Assembly (NCBI GenBank): GCA_016177575.1
Contig: JACOVA010000120.1
Span: 1-39,092, forward strand
Source: Betaproteobacteria bacterium
Lineage (GTDB): Bacteria > Pseudomonadota > Gammaproteobacteria > Burkholderiales > SG8-39
Length of the DNA stretch: 39,092 nucleotides
Direction: 5' to 3'
Positions 5,950-29,351 of this stretch are shown here, piece after piece; position 1 is the first letter of the stretch, and the number at the start of each line of letters is the position of its first letter. A program made the position numbers and the translations under genes. The notes beneath the pieces were generated by a model. The model saw nothing but the letters and a program-made list of their open reading frames with translations. It had not been told where the DNA came from and made no database searches.

Positions 5950-7125
5950 ATGCCCACCGAGACGATCCGATTCGCCAACGCGCGCGGCGCCGCGATTTCC
6001 GCGCGCCTCGACACGCCCGCCGGCCCGACGCGCGCCTACGCGCTCTTCGCGCACTGCTTCACCTGCTCCAAGGACAGCAAGGCCGCGGCCTACGTCAGCC
6101 AGGCGCTCGCCGGCCAGGGCGTCGCCACCCTCAGGTTCGACTTCTCCGGGCTCGAGTTCACCTCCAATGTCGAGGACCTGATTGCCGCCGCGGCCTGGCT
6201 GCGCGAGCAGCGCGCCGCGCCGCAGATCCTCGCCGGCCACAGCCTGGGCGGCGCCGCGGTGCTCGCCGCCGCGGGGAGGATTCCCGAAGCGCGCGCCGTG
6301 GCGACCATCGGCTCGCCTTTTGATCCTTCCCATGTTTCGCACCTGTTTTCGTCCTCGATTCCCGAAATCGAGTCCAGGGGCGAAACCGAAGTGAATCTCG
6401 GCGGCCGTCCGGTGCGCATCAGCAAGCAGTTCCTCGACGACCTGAAGGCGCAGAAGGCCGCCGAAGCCATCGGCGCGCTGCGCAAGCCCTTGCTCGTCTT
6501 CCACTCGCCGCGCGACACCATCGTGGATATCGAGAACGCCTCGAAGATCTTCCTCGCCGCCAAGCACCCGAAGAGCTTCGTGTCCCTGGACCGCGCCGAC
6601 CACCTGCTCACCCGGCACGAGGACGCGCAATACGTTGCCACCGTCCTCGCGGCCTGGGCCTCGCGTTACATGGATGTTTCCACCGAAGACCCGCAAGCCG
6701 TTGCAGGCGTCCGCGTCGTGGAAGCCGGCGAAGGCAGGTTCGCGCAGATCATCCAGGCCGGCCGCCACCGCCTGCGCGCCGACGAGCCGGCCTCCGTCGG
6801 CGGCGACGACTCCGGCCCGGGCCCCTACGACTTTCTGCTCGCGGCGCTCGGCGCCTGCACCTCGATGACCGTACGCATGTACGCCGAGCAGAAGAAATGG
6901 CCGCTGGCGCGCGTCTCCGTAGAGTTGAAGCACGACAAGGTCCACGCCACCGACTGCGCCGAGTGCGAGACCAAACAAGGCAGGATCGACCAGATCGAGC
7001 GCGTCCTCACCCTCGAAGGCAACCTCGACGAGGCGCAGCGCCAGCGCCTATTGGAGATCGCCAACAAGTGCCCGGTTCACCGGACGCTGCACAGCGAAGT
7101 CTGGATCCCTACCCGGCTGGCGTGA
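5950..7125 (+). CDS. Bifunctional alpha/beta hydrolase - OsmC-family fusion protein
   Basis: The 391-residue product joins an alpha/beta hydrolase (about 1-240) to an OsmC/Ohr-type peroxidase domain (about 250-390), a known fusion in proteobacteria. Hydrolase: nucleophile Ser98 in AGHSLGGAA, acid Asp189 in HSPRDTIVD, His218 in RADHLL. OsmC part: redox cysteines Cys303 (LGACTSMTVRMYAEQ) and Cys374 (NKCPVHRTL). The role is probably organic hydroperoxide detoxification, with the hydrolase acting on an ester substrate; this is inference from the families. One oddity: at residues 63-72 the sequence reads FDFSGLEFTS. As I recall relatives, roughly ten residues (a GxGxS/GGDF-like loop) lie between GL and the F-S/T-S-N segment, so an in-frame loss is likely. 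Confidence 0.9.
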   Translation: MPTETIRFANARGAAISARLDTPAGPTRAYALFAHCFTCSKDSKAAAYVSQALAGQGVATLRFDFSGLEFTSNVEDLIAAAAWLREQRAAPQILAGHSLGGAAVLAAAGRIPEARAVATIGSPFDPSHVSHLFSSSIPEIESRGETEVNLGGRPVRISKQFLDDLKAQKAAEAIGALRKPLLVFHSPRDTIVDIENASKIFLAAKHPKSFVSLDRADHLLTRHEDAQYVATVLAAWASRYMDVSTEDPQAVAGVRVVEAGEGRFAQIIQAGRHRLRADEPASVGGDDSGPGPYDFLLAALGACTSMTVRMYAEQKKWPLARVSVELKHDKVHATDCAECETKQGRIDQIERVLTLEGNLDEAQRQRLLEIANKCPVHRTLHSEVWIPTRLA

Positions 7126-24600: not shown

Positions 24601-25032
24601 ATGTTCGATCCATCGCGCGACCAGGCGAGGGCCCTGTTCTTCGAAACCTGGCGCAAGTACCGCGCCGGGCTCCCCCTGGCCGGCATCGAGAGCCTCGTTC
24701 TCGACATCGTTCTCCTGCACCCGGAGTATCACGCCCTGCTGGCTGACCGGGACAAGAGCTTCGGCAAGGACTTCTTTCCGGAAGCGGGAGAGACCAATCC
24801 GTTCCTGCACATGAGCCTGCACCTCGCGCTCGAGGAGCAGCTCTCGATCGATCAGCCCCCGGGAATCGTGCAGCGCTTCAACGCCCTGCTCGCCCGATCC
24901 GGCGAGCGCCACGCCGCGCTGCACGAGGCGATCGAGTGCCTGGCCGGGATGGTGTGGCGCTCGCAGCGCGACCGCGCACCGCCGGACGCGGCGGCTTACC
25001 TCGCCTGCCTCGAGAAGCGCGCGCAACGCTAG
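24601..25032 (+). CDS. DUF1841 family protein
   Basis: A 143-residue soluble protein matching the DUF1841 family, known mainly from beta- and gammaproteobacteria next to nth. Its hallmarks are the N-terminal MFDPSRDQARALFFETWRKY, the central HPEYHALL, and ETNPFLHMSLHLALEEQLSI with conserved histidines, followed by HEAIECLAGMVWRSQR. Its function has not been determined; histidine placement hints at a metal site. The stop codon TAG shares the sequence CTAG with the stop of the convergent FecR-domain gene. Confidence 0.93.
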   Translation: MFDPSRDQARALFFETWRKYRAGLPLAGIESLVLDIVLLHPEYHALLADRDKSFGKDFFPEAGETNPFLHMSLHLALEEQLSIDQPPGIVQRFNALLARSGERHAALHEAIECLAGMVWRSQRDRAPPDAAAYLACLEKRAQR

Positions 25033-27359
25033 CGCTTGAAGGCGCCCGCGAAGGTGACCGCCGGCGCCGGCGAAAAGAGGTTGCCGGCCACCGCGAGCCC
25101 CCCTGCCGCCGGCCCGACCAGGAAGGCGGCGCCGCTTCCCGAAGCCGCGGACGAAACGGAGCAGGCTCCGCCGGTGCAGGTGCCCTGCAGGTTCATGTTG
25201 CCGAAGACCACGTCGCCACCGGAATTGGTGCAGCCCGCCACGCACGTACCGATGTTGTAGCTTACGCCGCCGACCAAAAACTGGAGCGGCGAAGCGACCG
25301 AAATGGATTGAGTCGCGCCGAAATTCACCTGGAACGCGCCCGAGGTCAGCGGTCCGCCCACGACGCCCGTGTTCGTCACGACGTTCGGTCCCCCGGCGAG
25401 GTTGTAGACGAACGATCCGCTGGTAGGGACGGTGGTGTTGGCATTTCCGACGACGAACGGCACGCCTGAGTTCACCGTTACGACACCATAGGTGGGGTCG
25501 GTAATCTGTCCGCCTTGCCAGCGGCCCCAGTTCATGATGCCGCCGTCCACCAGCGAGGCGCTTCCGGTCTCTACGATCGAGCCCGTGCCGAGGCTGCCTT
25601 GCGGTACCCCGCTCAGCAGCGTGTTGAACGAGATCGGCTGGTTGGATGAGTTGTAGACCGTGTTGGAGGTCGCCAGGCTCCAGGTTCCGGCGAGCGAGGG
25701 CGAGTCGTGCGACCAGGCCACCTGGCCGGCGAGCGGCCCGGTCGGCGCCGGGCCGGGCGTGAAGGTGTTCACCGTATACGCATTGAGGAAGGCGACGTCG
25801 CCAGCTTGCGTGCCGAAGACGACGCCGGGAACTACCGCGAACTCATAACCCTGCGTCCCGGTAAAGCCTACGTCGAAGAAGCCGCCCGGATTGCTCGAAA
25901 TGCACCCGCTGCCCGAGCAGGTGCCGCTCAGGACGCCGATGAAGTCGCCGCCGTCGCTGGTGGAGAGAAAGGTCGAGGCGTGCACCCCGGTTCCGCTGAC
26001 CGAGAAAGTCGCGGATCCCGTGTTCGAGCCGGAAACGAGCACCGTCGGAAAGCTCATTCCGAGCGCGTAGTTCGCGGTGAGCTGCGTGAAGTTGATCGTC
26101 AGGCTCGAGCTGGTGATGCTGCCGACGTTGCCGCCCGCGTCCACCGGCTTCGGGCCGCCGGCATAGTTGTACGTGGCGTTGCCTCCCACCGTGCCGACGA
26201 AGTTGTTGTCCTGCTGCAGTCCGCTTGCCGTGCCGAACAGCACCGGTACGCCGCTCAGCGTCGGGCCCTCGAAGATGGTCACCTGCGTATTGCCCGTCCA
26301 CCTTCCCCACGCGAACGTCTGCCCGTTCTCCAGGAGCAGGCCGCCCGTATCGGTGATCGTTCCGCCGGCGAGCGAGCCCGAGGGATACGTGCCCAGAGTC
26401 CCGTACGAGAGCAGATGGTTCTGGCCGTTGAAAGTCGCGGTGGTCACGTCGTCGTCGAAGATCACGTCGCCGAACGGCTGGCTCGGCGCAAGCGGATACA
26501 CGGCGACGAAGCCGTTCGCCGGCGGCAGCACCACCGGCGTGCCCGTCGGATTCAGCTCCTGCGTGATTCGATACGGTTCCGTGATCACCGGGGTCGTCAC
26601 GGCGACGTCGGTCGTCGTCGCCGGCCGGCTTTCGGCGGCTGCGCCGCTCGAGCCGCCCGCCTGCTCGTCGCCCGTGCCGCTGCCGCCCTGCTGGGCCGCC
26701 TGCGCCTTGCCCTGCGGGCGCACGGCGACGAACGAAGGCGGCTGCAGCAGCGGCTGCGGACGCGAATTGACGTCGGGCACGTGGAAATGCTGGTTGATAC
26801 CGAACACGTGCTCGCCGGTGTTGTTGTCGAGCGTGACCTGGTTGGTGCCCGAGGACATGCCGAGCACCGTGCCGTACAGGCCGTCCTTCACGCCCGCGCC
26901 GCAGTCGCCCCGGCAGTCGCGCACCGCGTAGTCGGTGCCGCGGATGCCGATGGTCGCGGTCTCGGCGCGCACCTTGTAGTTGTCGTGCTGCGTCCGGCCG
27001 ATCAGGCCGGTGACGGCGCGGAAGCCGCCGCGCACCAGGCGGAAGAAGCCGCGCTCGCTGCCGTCTTCCTTGCCGGTGAAGCGGTACTCCTCGATCGCGA
27101 ACTCGCTGTTCTCGCGCAGCGAGATCAGCCCCTCGTCGGCGAAGCGCACCTGCAGCGAGCTGGCCGCGCCCGTGCGCAGCACGTCCTTCGCTTCGATCGT
27201 CGAATTGAACGCCAGGCGCACCTGCTTGCCGTCGCGCACGGCGAACGTATCTCCGGCGGCGAGCAGCACGCGGCCCACCGTCTCCGCATGCGCCAGCATC
27301 GCGCCGGCGGCGAGGCTGGCTCCGAGAACCCAGCGCAGAACCGAATTGCGCACGGCCAT
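25029..27359 (-). CDS. Large secreted FecR-domain protein with duplicated beta-rich C-terminal domain
   Basis: A 776-residue exported protein. A Sec signal (about 1-25, ending AHA) precedes a FecR domain: GRVLLAAGDTFAVRDGKQ, LRTGAASSLQVRFADEGLIS and RAETATIGIRGTDYAVRD (about 27-200). A low-complexity Gln/Gly/Ala/Ser/Pro linker (about 200-280) leads to two copies of a beta-rich domain of about 240 residues (about 282-515 and 542-776). Both copies carry GSLxxGxIxxTG, WGRW (351-354, 611-614), YNxAGGP (near 398, 652) and a later Gly/Ser-rich strand region ending PGVVFG or AGAFKR. The layout resembles the beta-barrel lobe of TbpB-like Slam passengers. There is no lipobox, transmembrane helix or sigma-factor partner, so it is unlikely to be a FecR anti-sigma regulator. 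GGGGGA precedes the ATG. It lies ten bases after the TPR-barrel gene. Confidence 0.85.
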   Translation of the reverse strand: MAVRNSVLRWVLGASLAAGAMLAHAETVGRVLLAAGDTFAVRDGKQVRLAFNSTIEAKDVLRTGAASSLQVRFADEGLISLRENSEFAIEEYRFTGKEDGSERGFFRLVRGGFRAVTGLIGRTQHDNYKVRAETATIGIRGTDYAVRDCRGDCGAGVKDGLYGTVLGMSSGTNQVTLDNNTGEHVFGINQHFHVPDVNSRPQPLLQPPSFVAVRPQGKAQAAQQGGSGTGDEQAGGSSGAAAESRPATTTDVAVTTPVITEPYRITQELNPTGTPVVLPPANGFVAVYPLAPSQPFGDVIFDDDVTTATFNGQNHLLSYGTLGTYPSGSLAGGTITDTGGLLLENGQTFAWGRWTGNTQVTIFEGPTLSGVPVLFGTASGLQQDNNFVGTVGGNATYNYAGGPKPVDAGGNVGSITSSSLTINFTQLTANYALGMSFPTVLVSGSNTGSATFSVSGTGVHASTFLSTSDGGDFIGVLSGTCSGSGCISSNPGGFFDVGFTGTQGYEFAVVPGVVFGTQAGDVAFLNAYTVNTFTPGPAPTGPLAGQVAWSHDSPSLAGTWSLATSNTVYNSSNQPISFNTLLSGVPQGSLGTGSIVETGSASLVDGGIMNWGRWQGGQITDPTYGVVTVNSGVPFVVGNANTTVPTSGSFVYNLAGGPNVVTNTGVVGGPLTSGAFQVNFGATQSISVASPLQFLVGGVSYNIGTCVAGCTNSGGDVVFGNMNLQGTCTGGACSVSSAASGSGAAFLVGPAAGGLAVAGNLFSPAPAVTFAGAFKR

Positions 27360-27369
27360 GGAATCCCCC

Positions 27370-28677
27370 TTACTTGAACTCGTAGCGCAGCTTGAGCATG
27401 AACAGGTGGCGGTCTGACTCGTATAGCGCAATGTTGGACTTGTTGTCTGTGAACTGGTACTCGCCGCGCACGCTCCAGTTGCGCGTCAGCGCATAGCTCA
27501 CGAACGCGTCCAGGCCGTAATAGCTGTCCTTGCGCACCACGCCCAGCAGCGGGTCGGGGCCATCGTACTTGCTCGACTGGTAGGTCGCCCCCGCCGAGAG
27601 CGACCAGCGTGGGGCGGGCGTCGTCGCGAGCGCGGCGCGCCCGCCGTAGAACCTGCGCCCGAGGTCGGGACGGCTCTGCTGGTTGCGCTCCTCGCCGATG
27701 CTTGCCTGCAGGGTCATGAGGGGCTGCCATTTGCCGATGAATGCCCGGCGGTACCCCGCGCCCAGCGCCAGCAGATCGGCGTTGCGCGGCCGGTTCGCGC
27801 CCGGGTAGTCGAGCCTTGCGACCTGCACGTAGCCATTGAGCATTTGCAGTTCGTCGAGCTGGTGGCTGACTTCGCCCGTGGCGCCCGCGACCTTGCGGAA
27901 GGTATCGTTTTCCAGTGCGAGCTCGCCGTACGTGCCGGTGAGCCGGAACAGGTTCCTGTCTCTGAGGTAGCTCACGCCACCCGCAAGATTGACGTTGGTC
28001 TGGTCGAACGCGCTGTCGTGCCGGTTGAATTTGCCGTCGGCGCTCGCGCTGCCGAACAGCGCCACGCCCGGCACGACGGGGTAGCTGACGTTGCCGCCCG
28101 CGGCGAAATAGCTGAACGTGTCGCCGGTCTTCACGCCGCTCAGCAGCGTGACGGGACCGAACACCGGCAGATTGATGTTGGCCGAGCCGACGCCGCCGTT
28201 GACGTTCGAGTCGGTGCCGACCCCGGCCTCGGCGTAGAAGCCCGCGGTGGTCCGGTAGCGCGACTCGCGCGCGCGGATCGAATCCATGAAGCGCTGGATG
28301 TTCGCCTCGACATCCGCGGGCGGGCTGGTCTTGCGTACCGCGTCGAATTCCTCGCGCGCGCGCGCATCGTCGCCGAGCACGAAATACCCCCGCGCGAGCT
28401 CCAGGCGCGCCTGCCGGTTGTCGGGAAAGTTCGCGATGTAGCGCTCGAGCGCGAGCACGCCCTCGCCGGCGTGGCCGGCGTCGATCGCCGCGACGCCGAA
28501 ATAGAAATCGAACGCCGGATTGCCGAGCTGGTCGGGATGCTGCCGGCCGAGGGCGTAGGCCTCGGCGGCCTTGCCCTGGTCGAGGAGCGCCTTCAAATCG
28601 TCGGCGGGCGCGGCCTGCGCCGGGAGTGAAATCGCCGCAGCGAGCGCGGTCGCGGCGAGCAAGCGGAGAGTCTGCAT
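27370..28677 (-). CDS. TPR plus outer-membrane beta-barrel protein (Slam/DUF560-like)
   Basis: A 435-residue exported protein with a signal peptide (to about residue 22, LPAQA). Helical TPR-like repeats cover about 24-135 (AYALGRQHPDQLGNPAFDFYFGVAAIDAG, RLELARGYFVLGDDARAREEF). The remainder is a series of alternating amphipathic strands that ends in LRYEFK, as outer-membrane barrels do. This layout matches the surface lipoprotein assembly modifier (Slam) family, whose members move specific proteins to the cell surface, although it is shorter than classical Slams. The neighbouring FecR-domain protein, ten bases downstream, is the obvious candidate passenger. A plain TPR-containing porin is the alternative. 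The ATG is three bases from the cytochrome c stop. Confidence 0.8.
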   Translation of the reverse strand: MQTLRLLAATALAAAISLPAQAAPADDLKALLDQGKAAEAYALGRQHPDQLGNPAFDFYFGVAAIDAGHAGEGVLALERYIANFPDNRQARLELARGYFVLGDDARAREEFDAVRKTSPPADVEANIQRFMDSIRARESRYRTTAGFYAEAGVGTDSNVNGGVGSANINLPVFGPVTLLSGVKTGDTFSYFAAGGNVSYPVVPGVALFGSASADGKFNRHDSAFDQTNVNLAGGVSYLRDRNLFRLTGTYGELALENDTFRKVAGATGEVSHQLDELQMLNGYVQVARLDYPGANRPRNADLLALGAGYRRAFIGKWQPLMTLQASIGEERNQQSRPDLGRRFYGGRAALATTPAPRWSLSAGATYQSSKYDGPDPLLGVVRKDSYYGLDAFVSYALTRNWSVRGEYQFTDNKSNIALYESDRHLFMLKLRYEFK

Positions 28678-28680
28678 TTT

Positions 28681-29013
28681 TCAGCGCTGGAAGTGCAGGC
28701 TCGACTTCTGGGCCGAGAACCACGCGGCCAGGTCTTCGATCTCCTTTTTCGACAGCGGGTCGGCGAAAGCCTTCATGATCGGGTTGGCGCGCTTGCCCGA
28801 CTTGTAGTCCGAGAGCGCCTTGACCAGGTAGTCGTAGTACTGCCCCGCCAGGATCGGCTGCTCGGGCCCGCTCGGCTTGGCGCCGTCGGCGCCGTGGCAT
28901 GCAGCGCAGACCTGCGTTGCCTTCGCCTTGCCGTTTTCAGGATTGCCTCTTGCATCAACCGCCGTAGCAACGGCAAGCGAGACGATAGCGAGACCCAGAA
29001 CAAGAAGTCTCAC
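28681..29013 (-). CDS. Monohaem c-type cytochrome
   Basis: A 110-residue exported class I cytochrome c. A signal peptide precedes the haem motif Cys36-Ala-Ala-Cys39-His40, and the axial Met is Met80 (ANPIMKAFADPLS). The closing helix EIEDLAAWFSAQ is typical of the cytochrome c4/c5 half-domain. The GTG start at 29013 overlaps the stop of the upstream cytochrome gene (GTGA) and has GGAGG seven bases upstream. Two single-haem halves side by side look like a cytochrome c4 split into two genes, or a duplication. It is followed after three bases by the TPR-barrel gene. Confidence 0.93.
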   Translation of the reverse strand: MRLLVLGLAIVSLAVATAVDARGNPENGKAKATQVCAACHGADGAKPSGPEQPILAGQYYDYLVKALSDYKSGKRANPIMKAFADPLSKKEIEDLAAWFSAQKSSLHFQR

Positions 29014-29351
29014 TTGCGACCTCCGGAGTAGTAGGCCGCGAGGTCGAGGATGTCCTTGTCCGAGAGGCTGGCCGCGATGCCGCGCATCGACGGGTGGCTG
29101 CGCTGGCCGGACTTGTAGGCGTGCAGCGCGGCGGCGATGTAGGCCGCCTGCTGCCCGCCGAGCATCGGCACGTGGTAGACCTGGGGATAGGCGGTCTTGT
29201 AGCCCGGAATTCCGTGGCAGCCTTCGCACATCGCGATCCGGTTGTGCGCTTTCTTCGGGTCGCCCACGTACGCGGGCTGTTGCGCAAGCGCGGCGCCGGC
29301 CGATACCGCGAGCAGGATTGCGGCGAGGCATTTAAGCGAGCGGCTTTGCAT
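29010..29351 (-). CDS. Monohaem c-type cytochrome
   Basis: A 113-residue exported cytochrome c, first gene of this minus-strand operon. Its signal peptide is MQSRSLKCLAAILLAVSAGA plus ALA, the haem motif is Cys42-Glu-Gly-Cys45-His46, and the probable axial Met is Met89 (HPSMRGIAASLSD). The family resembles the N-terminal half of cytochrome c4. The segment VPMLGGQQAAYIAAALHAYKSG is close to the matching part of the next cytochrome (QPILAGQYYDYLVKALSDYKSG), so the two genes probably arose by duplication. The start faces the MoxR gene across a 63-base divergent promoter region. Confidence 0.93.
   Translation of the reverse strand: MQSRSLKCLAAILLAVSAGAALAQQPAYVGDPKKAHNRIAMCEGCHGIPGYKTAYPQVYHVPMLGGQQAAYIAAALHAYKSGQRSHPSMRGIAASLSDKDILDLAAYYSGGRK

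Follow-up and report, generated by a model that had tools for sequence, protein, structure and literature searches.

A divergent Slam-type outer-membrane barrel gene regularly paired with a gene for a predicted exported FecR protein with TbpB-like modules

Two adjoining genes in a 39,092-nucleotide stretch of betaproteobacterial DNA (assembly GCA_016177575.1, contig JACOVA010000120.1; 'the window' hereafter) encode what sequence comparisons show to be a divergent outer-membrane protein of the Slam/type 11 secretion system (T11SS) type, P0001, and its regular non-lipidated secretory partner, P0002, in which a FecR domain is joined by a flexible linker to two TbpB-like modules. The homology and the gene pairing are firm at the level of sequence comparison, and export of P0002 by P0001 is likely by analogy with Slam and TbpB. 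An original prediction, made from the letters of the window, had read the pair as a Slam-like translocator with a FecR-domain passenger. We infer that this reading is partly supported, the pairing of the genes being upheld and translocation being predicted.

The two open reading frames were found where the original prediction had placed them, ten bases apart (Table 1); an alternative TTG start would extend P0002 to 800 aa. Among relatives the corresponding gap varies from a short overlap to about 180 bp. The window assembly amounts to 1.96 Mb, is 64% complete and holds one SlipAM match at E 0.01, which is P0001 itself. Of the named relatives found, Betaproteobacteria MAGs are the closest.

Table 1. 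Positions of the two genes and of their predicted parts in the window
Feature	Position	Strand	Details
P0001 barrel gene	27370-28677	minus	435 aa, ATG start
TPR-like helical domain	28255-28608	minus	residues ~24-141; AF2 helices, TPR profile match
Predicted 14-strand outer-membrane barrel	27376-28248	minus	residues 144-434; AF2, PF04575, barrel-only profile
Intergenic gap P0001/P0002	27360-27369	minus	10 bp
P0002 FecR gene	25029-27359	minus	776 aa from ATG
Signal peptide of P0002	27285-27359	minus	residues ~1-25, ends AHA; by inspection, hydropathy
FecR region of P0002	26748-27281	minus	residues ~27-204; Pfam FecR 59-160
Low-confidence Gly/Ser/Ala/Gln-rich linker	26517-26747	minus	residues ~205-281; pLDDT mostly <50 from residue 215
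TbpB-like module 1	25794-26516	minus	residues ~282-522; module HMM, fold matches
TbpB-like module 2	25032-25727	minus	residues ~545-776, ends GAFKR; module HMM, fold matches

P0001 has the make-up that had been read from its letters, with a signal-peptide-like N-terminus, TPR-like helices, a strand-rich part and a C-terminus that ends in an aromatic residue plus Lys (YEFK). Its AF2 model (mean pLDDT 92.3) comprises eight N-terminal helices, the first of which lies inside the signal peptide, 14 long strands, and one further short helix inside a barrel loop. Fourteen strands are expected of a Slam; a barrel unlike Slam, such as a closed porin, which would have refuted the original prediction, did not emerge. 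The Pfam family PF04575 (SlipAM, DUF560) matches residues 199-434 with 26.8 bits against a cut-off of 22. BBP2_2 also scores above its cut-off at the C-terminal end, TPR_16 and TPR_19 fall below theirs, and PF24575 (TPR_Slam) is not listed at E values up to 1. Among 34 P0001-type family members, SlipAM is found at E 0.01 in 20 (best 8.6e-16) and TPR_Slam in six, and the ten canonical Slams of our class sample all match both models. The alignments used for profile comparison cover 34 of 37 barrel loci (A2; L073, L096 and L097, broken or cut, were left out) and 10 of 13 canonical Slam loci (A5). Compared by hhalign, the P0001-type profile matches that of the ten canonical Slams at E 2.7e-36 over 385 columns; the barrels alone match at E 7.4e-24 and the TPR domains alone at E 2.2e-14 (probability 98.3), while null controls (one reversed and five shuffled alignments) gave probabilities of at most 2.2. 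The Slam likeness foreseen for P0001 is thereby borne out against DUF560 and by profile, and by these measures P0001 belongs, remotely but clearly, to the Slam/type 11 secretion superfamily.

A tree was built from rows picked by similarity to the two families, some of them on long branches (L095 and L191 among them). In it, 77 FecR-type rows, which take in a few loci lacking a visible FecR (L067, which lies at a contig end, and also L088 and L095), and 12 of the canonical Slam loci split on one branch with support of 100. As judged from this tree, the FecR-linked barrels are a lineage separate from the canonical Slams, which is new here. With the P0001 model, the best of the 50 matches listed by Foldseek was BcsC, and the best of the 50 listed by VIA-align were CymA and OmpG (Z 20-22.6), both of them 14-strand barrels. 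Since neither method lists a Slam structure among its matches, the best templates shown are other barrels. A plain PDB sequence search with P0001 returned TPR and chance matches only.

P0002 likewise agrees with its earlier description as a 776-residue exported protein with a FecR domain and two copies of a further domain. Pfam FecR has one match to it (46.5 bits, cut-off 24), and the module copies are tandem duplicates, 37% identical over 123 aa (BLAST E 3e-11). By inspection its N-terminus is a secretory signal peptide, unlike that of FecR anti-sigma regulators, and the cytoplasmic N-domain and transmembrane helix of such regulators are not in P0002, for which PF04773 is the only match at E up to 1. 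We found no lipobox in P0002 and no convincing one in the FecR+module ORFs, 2 of 71 of which match the pattern, both within the hydrophobic core.

When a profile of the FecR region was compared with PDB sequences, the sole significant match was 5ix9 (E 5e-5; next 0.13), which carries the labels 'Antifreeze protein' and 'Cell surface anchoring domain', resembles the first part of the region, and is part of a giant ice-binding RTX adhesin. The predicted fold agrees with this structure over 74 of 76 residues (VIA-align Z 10.5, rmsd 1.9). In LapA-type adhesins, a retention module keeps the protein in the envelope. At E 0.1, the NCBIfam model retention_LapA is present in 27 of the 31 FecR domains compared (best 2e-10), and models of two other FecR-bearing surface proteins, LipL45 and Lsa33, match 30 and 28 of the 31, respectively. 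P0002 itself scores 17.1 bits with retention_LapA (NF033682), far under the cut-off of 50, and far under the cut-offs for LipL45 and Lsa33 as well, so the likeness to LapA and to these surface proteins is a lead only. The failed membership lowers the claim of kinship with LapA and leaves the functional analogy standing. In the literature searched, no paper brings LapA and FecR together with the term 'retention module'. That LapG cuts within the linker was tested as well and is not supported: 3 of the 71 linkers carry a LapG-like motif, where shuffles lead one to expect 6.3.

The module profile was made from alignment A3, which holds 26 of 29 motif-bearing passengers (L069, L081 and L101 are out) together with a single one of the two P0002 modules. 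The resulting HMM matches both copies in P0002, copy 2 being part of the model and copy 1 not. A wider alignment of passengers (A1) takes in 29 of 39 FecR ORFs and leaves out the truncated L065, L069 and L094, L097 with its cut barrel, and L098-L101, L103 and L105, which no barrel adjoins. Pfam FecR is present in all 29 of these. TbpB_B_D was found in 0 of the 29 by single-sequence search, and phmmer with the modules found no PDB match, from which we judge single-sequence searches to be too weak for the modules. Against 177,635 PDB sequences, the profile of 26 C-terminal modules has TbpB (5kkx) as its best match at 3.5e-6, followed by LbpB (0.0025), LbpB again (0.0093) and hemophilin (0.015). 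The AF2 model of P0002 is moderate (pLDDT 68), and Foldseek gave no match to it at E 0.001 or better (best 4e-3). With VIA-align, run over the top Foldseek chains, 48 of the 50 matches listed, which span both modules, are to proteins of the T11SS-cargo type at Z 8.5-11: fHbp (some of them chimeras), TbpB, LbpB, HpuA, hemophilins, the Slam-dependent PmSLP and a 'surface lipoprotein'; the remaining two are 5ix9 and 3rwx. By profile and by modelled fold, the P0002 modules are thus TbpB-like. The structure prediction bears out this part of the earlier reading within the limits of a moderate model, and the proposed kinship of the 240-residue repeats with the TbpB family holds by profile and fold but not by the Pfam model TbpB_B_D.

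Most of the 71 FecR+module ORFs have one module (62), with two in four ORFs, three in two and four in three. The four-module passengers (L079:9186-13457, L086:8338-12792 and L092:9061-13902) are 1423-1613 aa long, and each adjoins a single barrel gene. The FecR passenger of a close relative (L071:8550-9845) has no module match, and its C-terminal domain is by eye of another kind. Three-module proteins at L251:8635-12255 and L252:8180-11242 adjoin P0001-type barrels; their N-termini are weakly FecR-like and seemingly degenerate (hhalign probability 71, E 3.7e-5, from two sequences only), and they are possibly of the 'Sphingomonas surface protein' type.

The regularity of the gene pair was surveyed in 369 genomes sampled evenly across the class (the class sample), an upstream barrel being one on the same strand within 2.5 kb. 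Because the search here set out from the module by itself, this is a fairer test than the relatives provide. Among 41 FecR+module ORFs of this sample, a barrel gene lies within 2.5 kb upstream of 39 and downstream of one, and one ORF is at a contig edge; a Slam-like gene is within 2.5 kb of all 40 testable FecR+module proteins. At the fetched loci of relatives the barrel is upstream of 26 of 29 such ORFs, L101, L102 and L104 being the exceptions. Barrels were found in 26 of 61 relative genomes, and FecR-protein matches in 41 of the 61. The barrel gene comes first with few exceptions, and because the pair recurs in dozens of genomes, its occurrence in the window is not a matter of chance. Module matches occur in 40 of the 369 class genomes (the window's included), some of them on non-FecR proteins, and the profile, which was derived from barrel-linked passengers, is biased toward finding such passengers; the 50 module places reduce to 45 class loci and the window because neighbouring matches shared a locus. 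This survey confirms the foreseen co-occurrence of the two genes. That the FecR gene should seldom occur without the barrel gene is true of FecR+module proteins, which are nearly always paired, but not of FecR domains by themselves, which are common without a barrel, as expected of a general domain.

A SlipAM search of the same sample matched 26 of 369 genomes. The strong matches, in seven genomes, have no adjoining FecR, and the weak ones examined do. Barrels without an adjoining FecR occur at L088 (G021) and L095 (G031), and at L195-L197 the barrel adjoins a short FecR protein without a module match. Module proteins without a FecR domain were seen at L199:9638-11137 (G322) and L133:5995-7338 (G210), and neither genome yielded a P0001-type barrel.

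Clustering of neighbouring genes brought out a recurrent family of CHASE2 receptors, recognized as such by Pfam in most scanned members, whose output near the barrels is a cyclase (adenylate/guanylate) or a histidine kinase. A CHASE2 profile match lies near the barrel at 15 of the 38 loci of the class sample and 4 of the 36 from relatives, against none of the 13 canonical Slam loci, counts that are lower bounds because flanks end at contig ends; for the class loci the expectation from the CHASE2 density of these genomes is 0.34 (431 kb scanned). An upstream CHASE2 gene on the barrel's own strand, only 6-103 bp away, was seen at L113, L116, L122 and L131. Of 398 genomes sampled from the phylum, 37 gave a match to the barrel profile, and a further set of 37 barrels, some within the class, was assembled from 40 places by removing four already known and adding L248 from a class genome. 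FecR lies within 350 bp of 25 of these barrels. CHASE2 is present within 7 kb of 15 of the 25, against 0 of the 12 others (Fisher 0.0004), although the Poisson and Fisher statistics assume independent loci, which is not fully true here, the 15 class loci falling into 12 coded families. The association of FecR-linked barrels with CHASE2 is far above chance, and is new here.

Eighteen of the 25 FecR-linked barrels lie outside the class. Their FecR partners have no module match (0/18; HMM, E 0.001, with the C-termini of L243 and L244 barrel-like by eye), in 12 of them Pro+Gly make up 36% or more of the C-terminal tail, and CHASE2 is within 7 kb at 11 of the 18 loci. The lack of a module match and the Pro/Gly-rich tails are likewise new here. 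Because the module is thus unmatched where CHASE2 is frequent, FecR probably retains its part in signalling, and it is less likely that a FecR passenger is just another use of the fold. Close to the window the signalling link is at its weakest, since the window assembly, at 64% completeness, has no CHASE2 match and the relative loci have only 4 in 36. A different kind of neighbour, a very long protein with Ig/cadherin/PKD repeats, was seen at L110:2-5983; its cluster is found at five loci, downstream of the barrel and on the barrel's strand.

These observations suggest a mechanism in which both proteins would reach the periplasm by Sec and the P0001 barrel would bring the unfolded C-terminal modules through the outer membrane and onto the cell surface, in the way that Slam handles TbpB. 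By this analogy, export of the modules to the surface seems fairly probable. The N-terminal FecR domain would remain in the periplasm, a placement of which we are less sure; in its favour, P0002 lacks a lipid anchor and the domain resembles a known cell-surface-anchoring domain. It would there report to an inner-membrane CHASE2 receptor with adenylate/guanylate cyclase or histidine kinase output, a step suggested by gene order and put forward tentatively, with some doubt. In such a relay, which would sense the envelope or the surface, the P0001/P0002 pair would form the outer arm, with the barrel exporting or holding the C-terminal part. Taken as a whole, a relay of barrel-exported modules, periplasmic FecR and CHASE2 output falls only a little short of an even balance in our judgement, and it is least certain in the window itself, which shows no CHASE2 gene. 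A more elaborate form, which we consider somewhat unlikely, would make the Slam-type barrel both gate and sensor of a three-layer machine, the FecR protein being threaded through it. The C-terminal part (modules here, often a Pro/Gly-rich tail elsewhere) would lie in the lumen or at the surface, the FecR domain would be held as a periplasmic plug, and failed or reversed export, or a ligand outside, would alter the contact between FecR and CHASE2 and with it cAMP or phosphorelay output. If true, this would be an RcsF-like trans-envelope sensor, separately evolved, with the secretion gate doing the sensing.

The same data can be read more simply as plain type 11 secretion, in which the whole FecR+module protein would be exported to the surface or the medium, FecR and/or the modules would bind a ligand outside like soluble hemophilin, and CHASE2 would be incidental or co-regulated. 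The cargo fold and the gene pairing match known T11SS loci, and P0002, having no lipobox, resembles the soluble T11SS cargo already described (PMC12282271). We nonetheless regard this explanation as unlikely, since the CHASE2 linkage far exceeds chance and is found only at FecR-linked barrels, and since none of the 18 FecR partners outside the class matches the cargo module. Those partners bear also on the converse possibility, a signalling complex without protein export, in which the barrel would serve the FecR protein as its outer-membrane receptor or holder, and the modules would be periplasmic binding domains. Outside the class there are tight barrel-FecR-CHASE2 runs without a module match (e.g. 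L255-L257, L259, L260, L262, L264 and L265), and a CHASE2-FecR-TPR cluster of Campylobacterota has been proposed as one pathway (PMC9239204, in part; 'in part' here and below marks a source used in excerpt). The modules in the class are nevertheless of the Slam-cargo kind and are retained together with the barrel gene, and we think a complex without export quite improbable.

Even further from the data, in our estimate most improbable, is the reading of P0001 as an ordinary porin or a polysaccharide exporter of the PgaA/BcsC type that adjoins a FecR gene by chance. BBP2_2 scores above its cut-off, and BcsC, CymA and OmpG head the structural matches listed. The Slam profile match over the TPR domain and the full barrel, set against null controls of at most 2.2, disfavours both the porin and the exporter, and the FecR partner is conserved.

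With Slam/T11SS outer-membrane proteins, P0001 shares a signal peptide, a TPR domain, a predicted 14-strand barrel and profile homology, and its gene likewise adjoins one for a TbpB-fold cargo. It differs from the 12 canonical Slams in its separate branch (support 100) and in that PF24575 TPR_Slam is unlisted for it, and its loci differ from theirs in the FecR domain of the partner and in the CHASE2 genes near many relatives. P0002, for its part, has TbpB-like modules in common with cargo of the TbpB/LbpB/hemophilin/fHbp type, the module being duplicated as in TbpB, whereas P0002-type proteins have an N-terminal FecR domain, no lipobox and one to four modules. Slam1 moves unfolded TbpB (PMC9090332, in part), and T11SS cargo includes soluble cargo (PMC12282271). 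The surface proteins of Sphingomonas and Psychrobacter (PMC12282271) share with P0002-type proteins the use of several handle-barrel pairs per cargo, but are described as having Pro-Thr-rich N-termini. FecR is absent from the T11SS cargo architectures of that study, the word occurring 0 times in its main text, and it is also absent from the main texts of two further T11SS papers (PMC8406197, PMC5449769). In a literature search for which subscription papers were mostly out of scope, we found no account of a FecR-TbpB-type cargo of Slam. A Lysobacter cluster brings together genes for a sigma factor, FecR, a TonB transporter, a TbpB-like protein and Slam (PMC11233812, in part), but there FecR is a separate regulator, unlike the FecR fused to modules here.

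Precedents for the signalling side are also in print. A Campylobacterota cluster of a CHASE2 adenylate cyclase, a phosphodiesterase, FecR and TPR proteins, already proposed as one pathway, has CHASE2, FecR and TPR in common with the loci described here, and the excerpts used make no mention of Slam or TbpB (PMC9239204, in part). The BiofilmReg operon of Burkholderia, in which a LysM-FecR gene accompanies a CHASE2 histidine kinase, shares the position of FecR beside a CHASE2 receptor and shows no barrel gene in the excerpts used, 'outer membrane' and 'TPR' occurring 0 times in the paper's main text (PMC5192318, in part). These two clusters support the signalling reading. RcsF, a sensor for which it has been proposed that it runs through the inside of an outer-membrane barrel and signals to an inner-membrane partner (PMC9907809, in part), is a works-like analogy only, since the proteins of the RcsF/OMP complex are unrelated and RcsF is a lipoprotein.

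The experimentally verified T11SS, whose cargo are adhesins, haemophores and metal binders, all belong to the animal-associated cluster 1 (PMC12282271, in part), and a 2021 survey stated that for the remaining nine clusters the cargo was not yet known (PMC8406197, in part). One lineage outside cluster 1 would now gain a partner of defined make-up, a fusion of FecR with TbpB-like modules, with module matches in 40 of the 369 class genomes against seven with strong canonical Slam matches. The signals of CHASE2 receptors have been described as not known (PMC5192318, in part), and the pair is a candidate for their arm at the outer membrane and may also supply them with a periplasmic ligand. A signalling use is thereby suggested for an export system hitherto tied to iron-capture and adhesion proteins.

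No promoter-like site was found, and terminator-like sites are at chance level. Six neighbour families occur at four or more of 73 loci by clustering, and among these, with a minority of neighbours annotated individually, none was recognized as a TonB receptor that would indicate a haem/TonB context. Two small c-type cytochrome genes, both with CXXCH in translation, lie on the barrel's strand at 28681-29351 of the window, the nearer one stopping 3 bp ahead of the P0001 start. An operon of cytochrome c and barrel was considered and rejected: among 89 loci searched by tblastn, relatives of the nearer cytochrome are present at three only (L069, L073 and L074) and at none of these lie upstream of the barrel on its strand, and the window's cytochrome genes are therefore taken as incidental. 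Elsewhere in the window, at 5950-7125, is a gene for an alpha/beta hydrolase fused to an OsmC-like domain.
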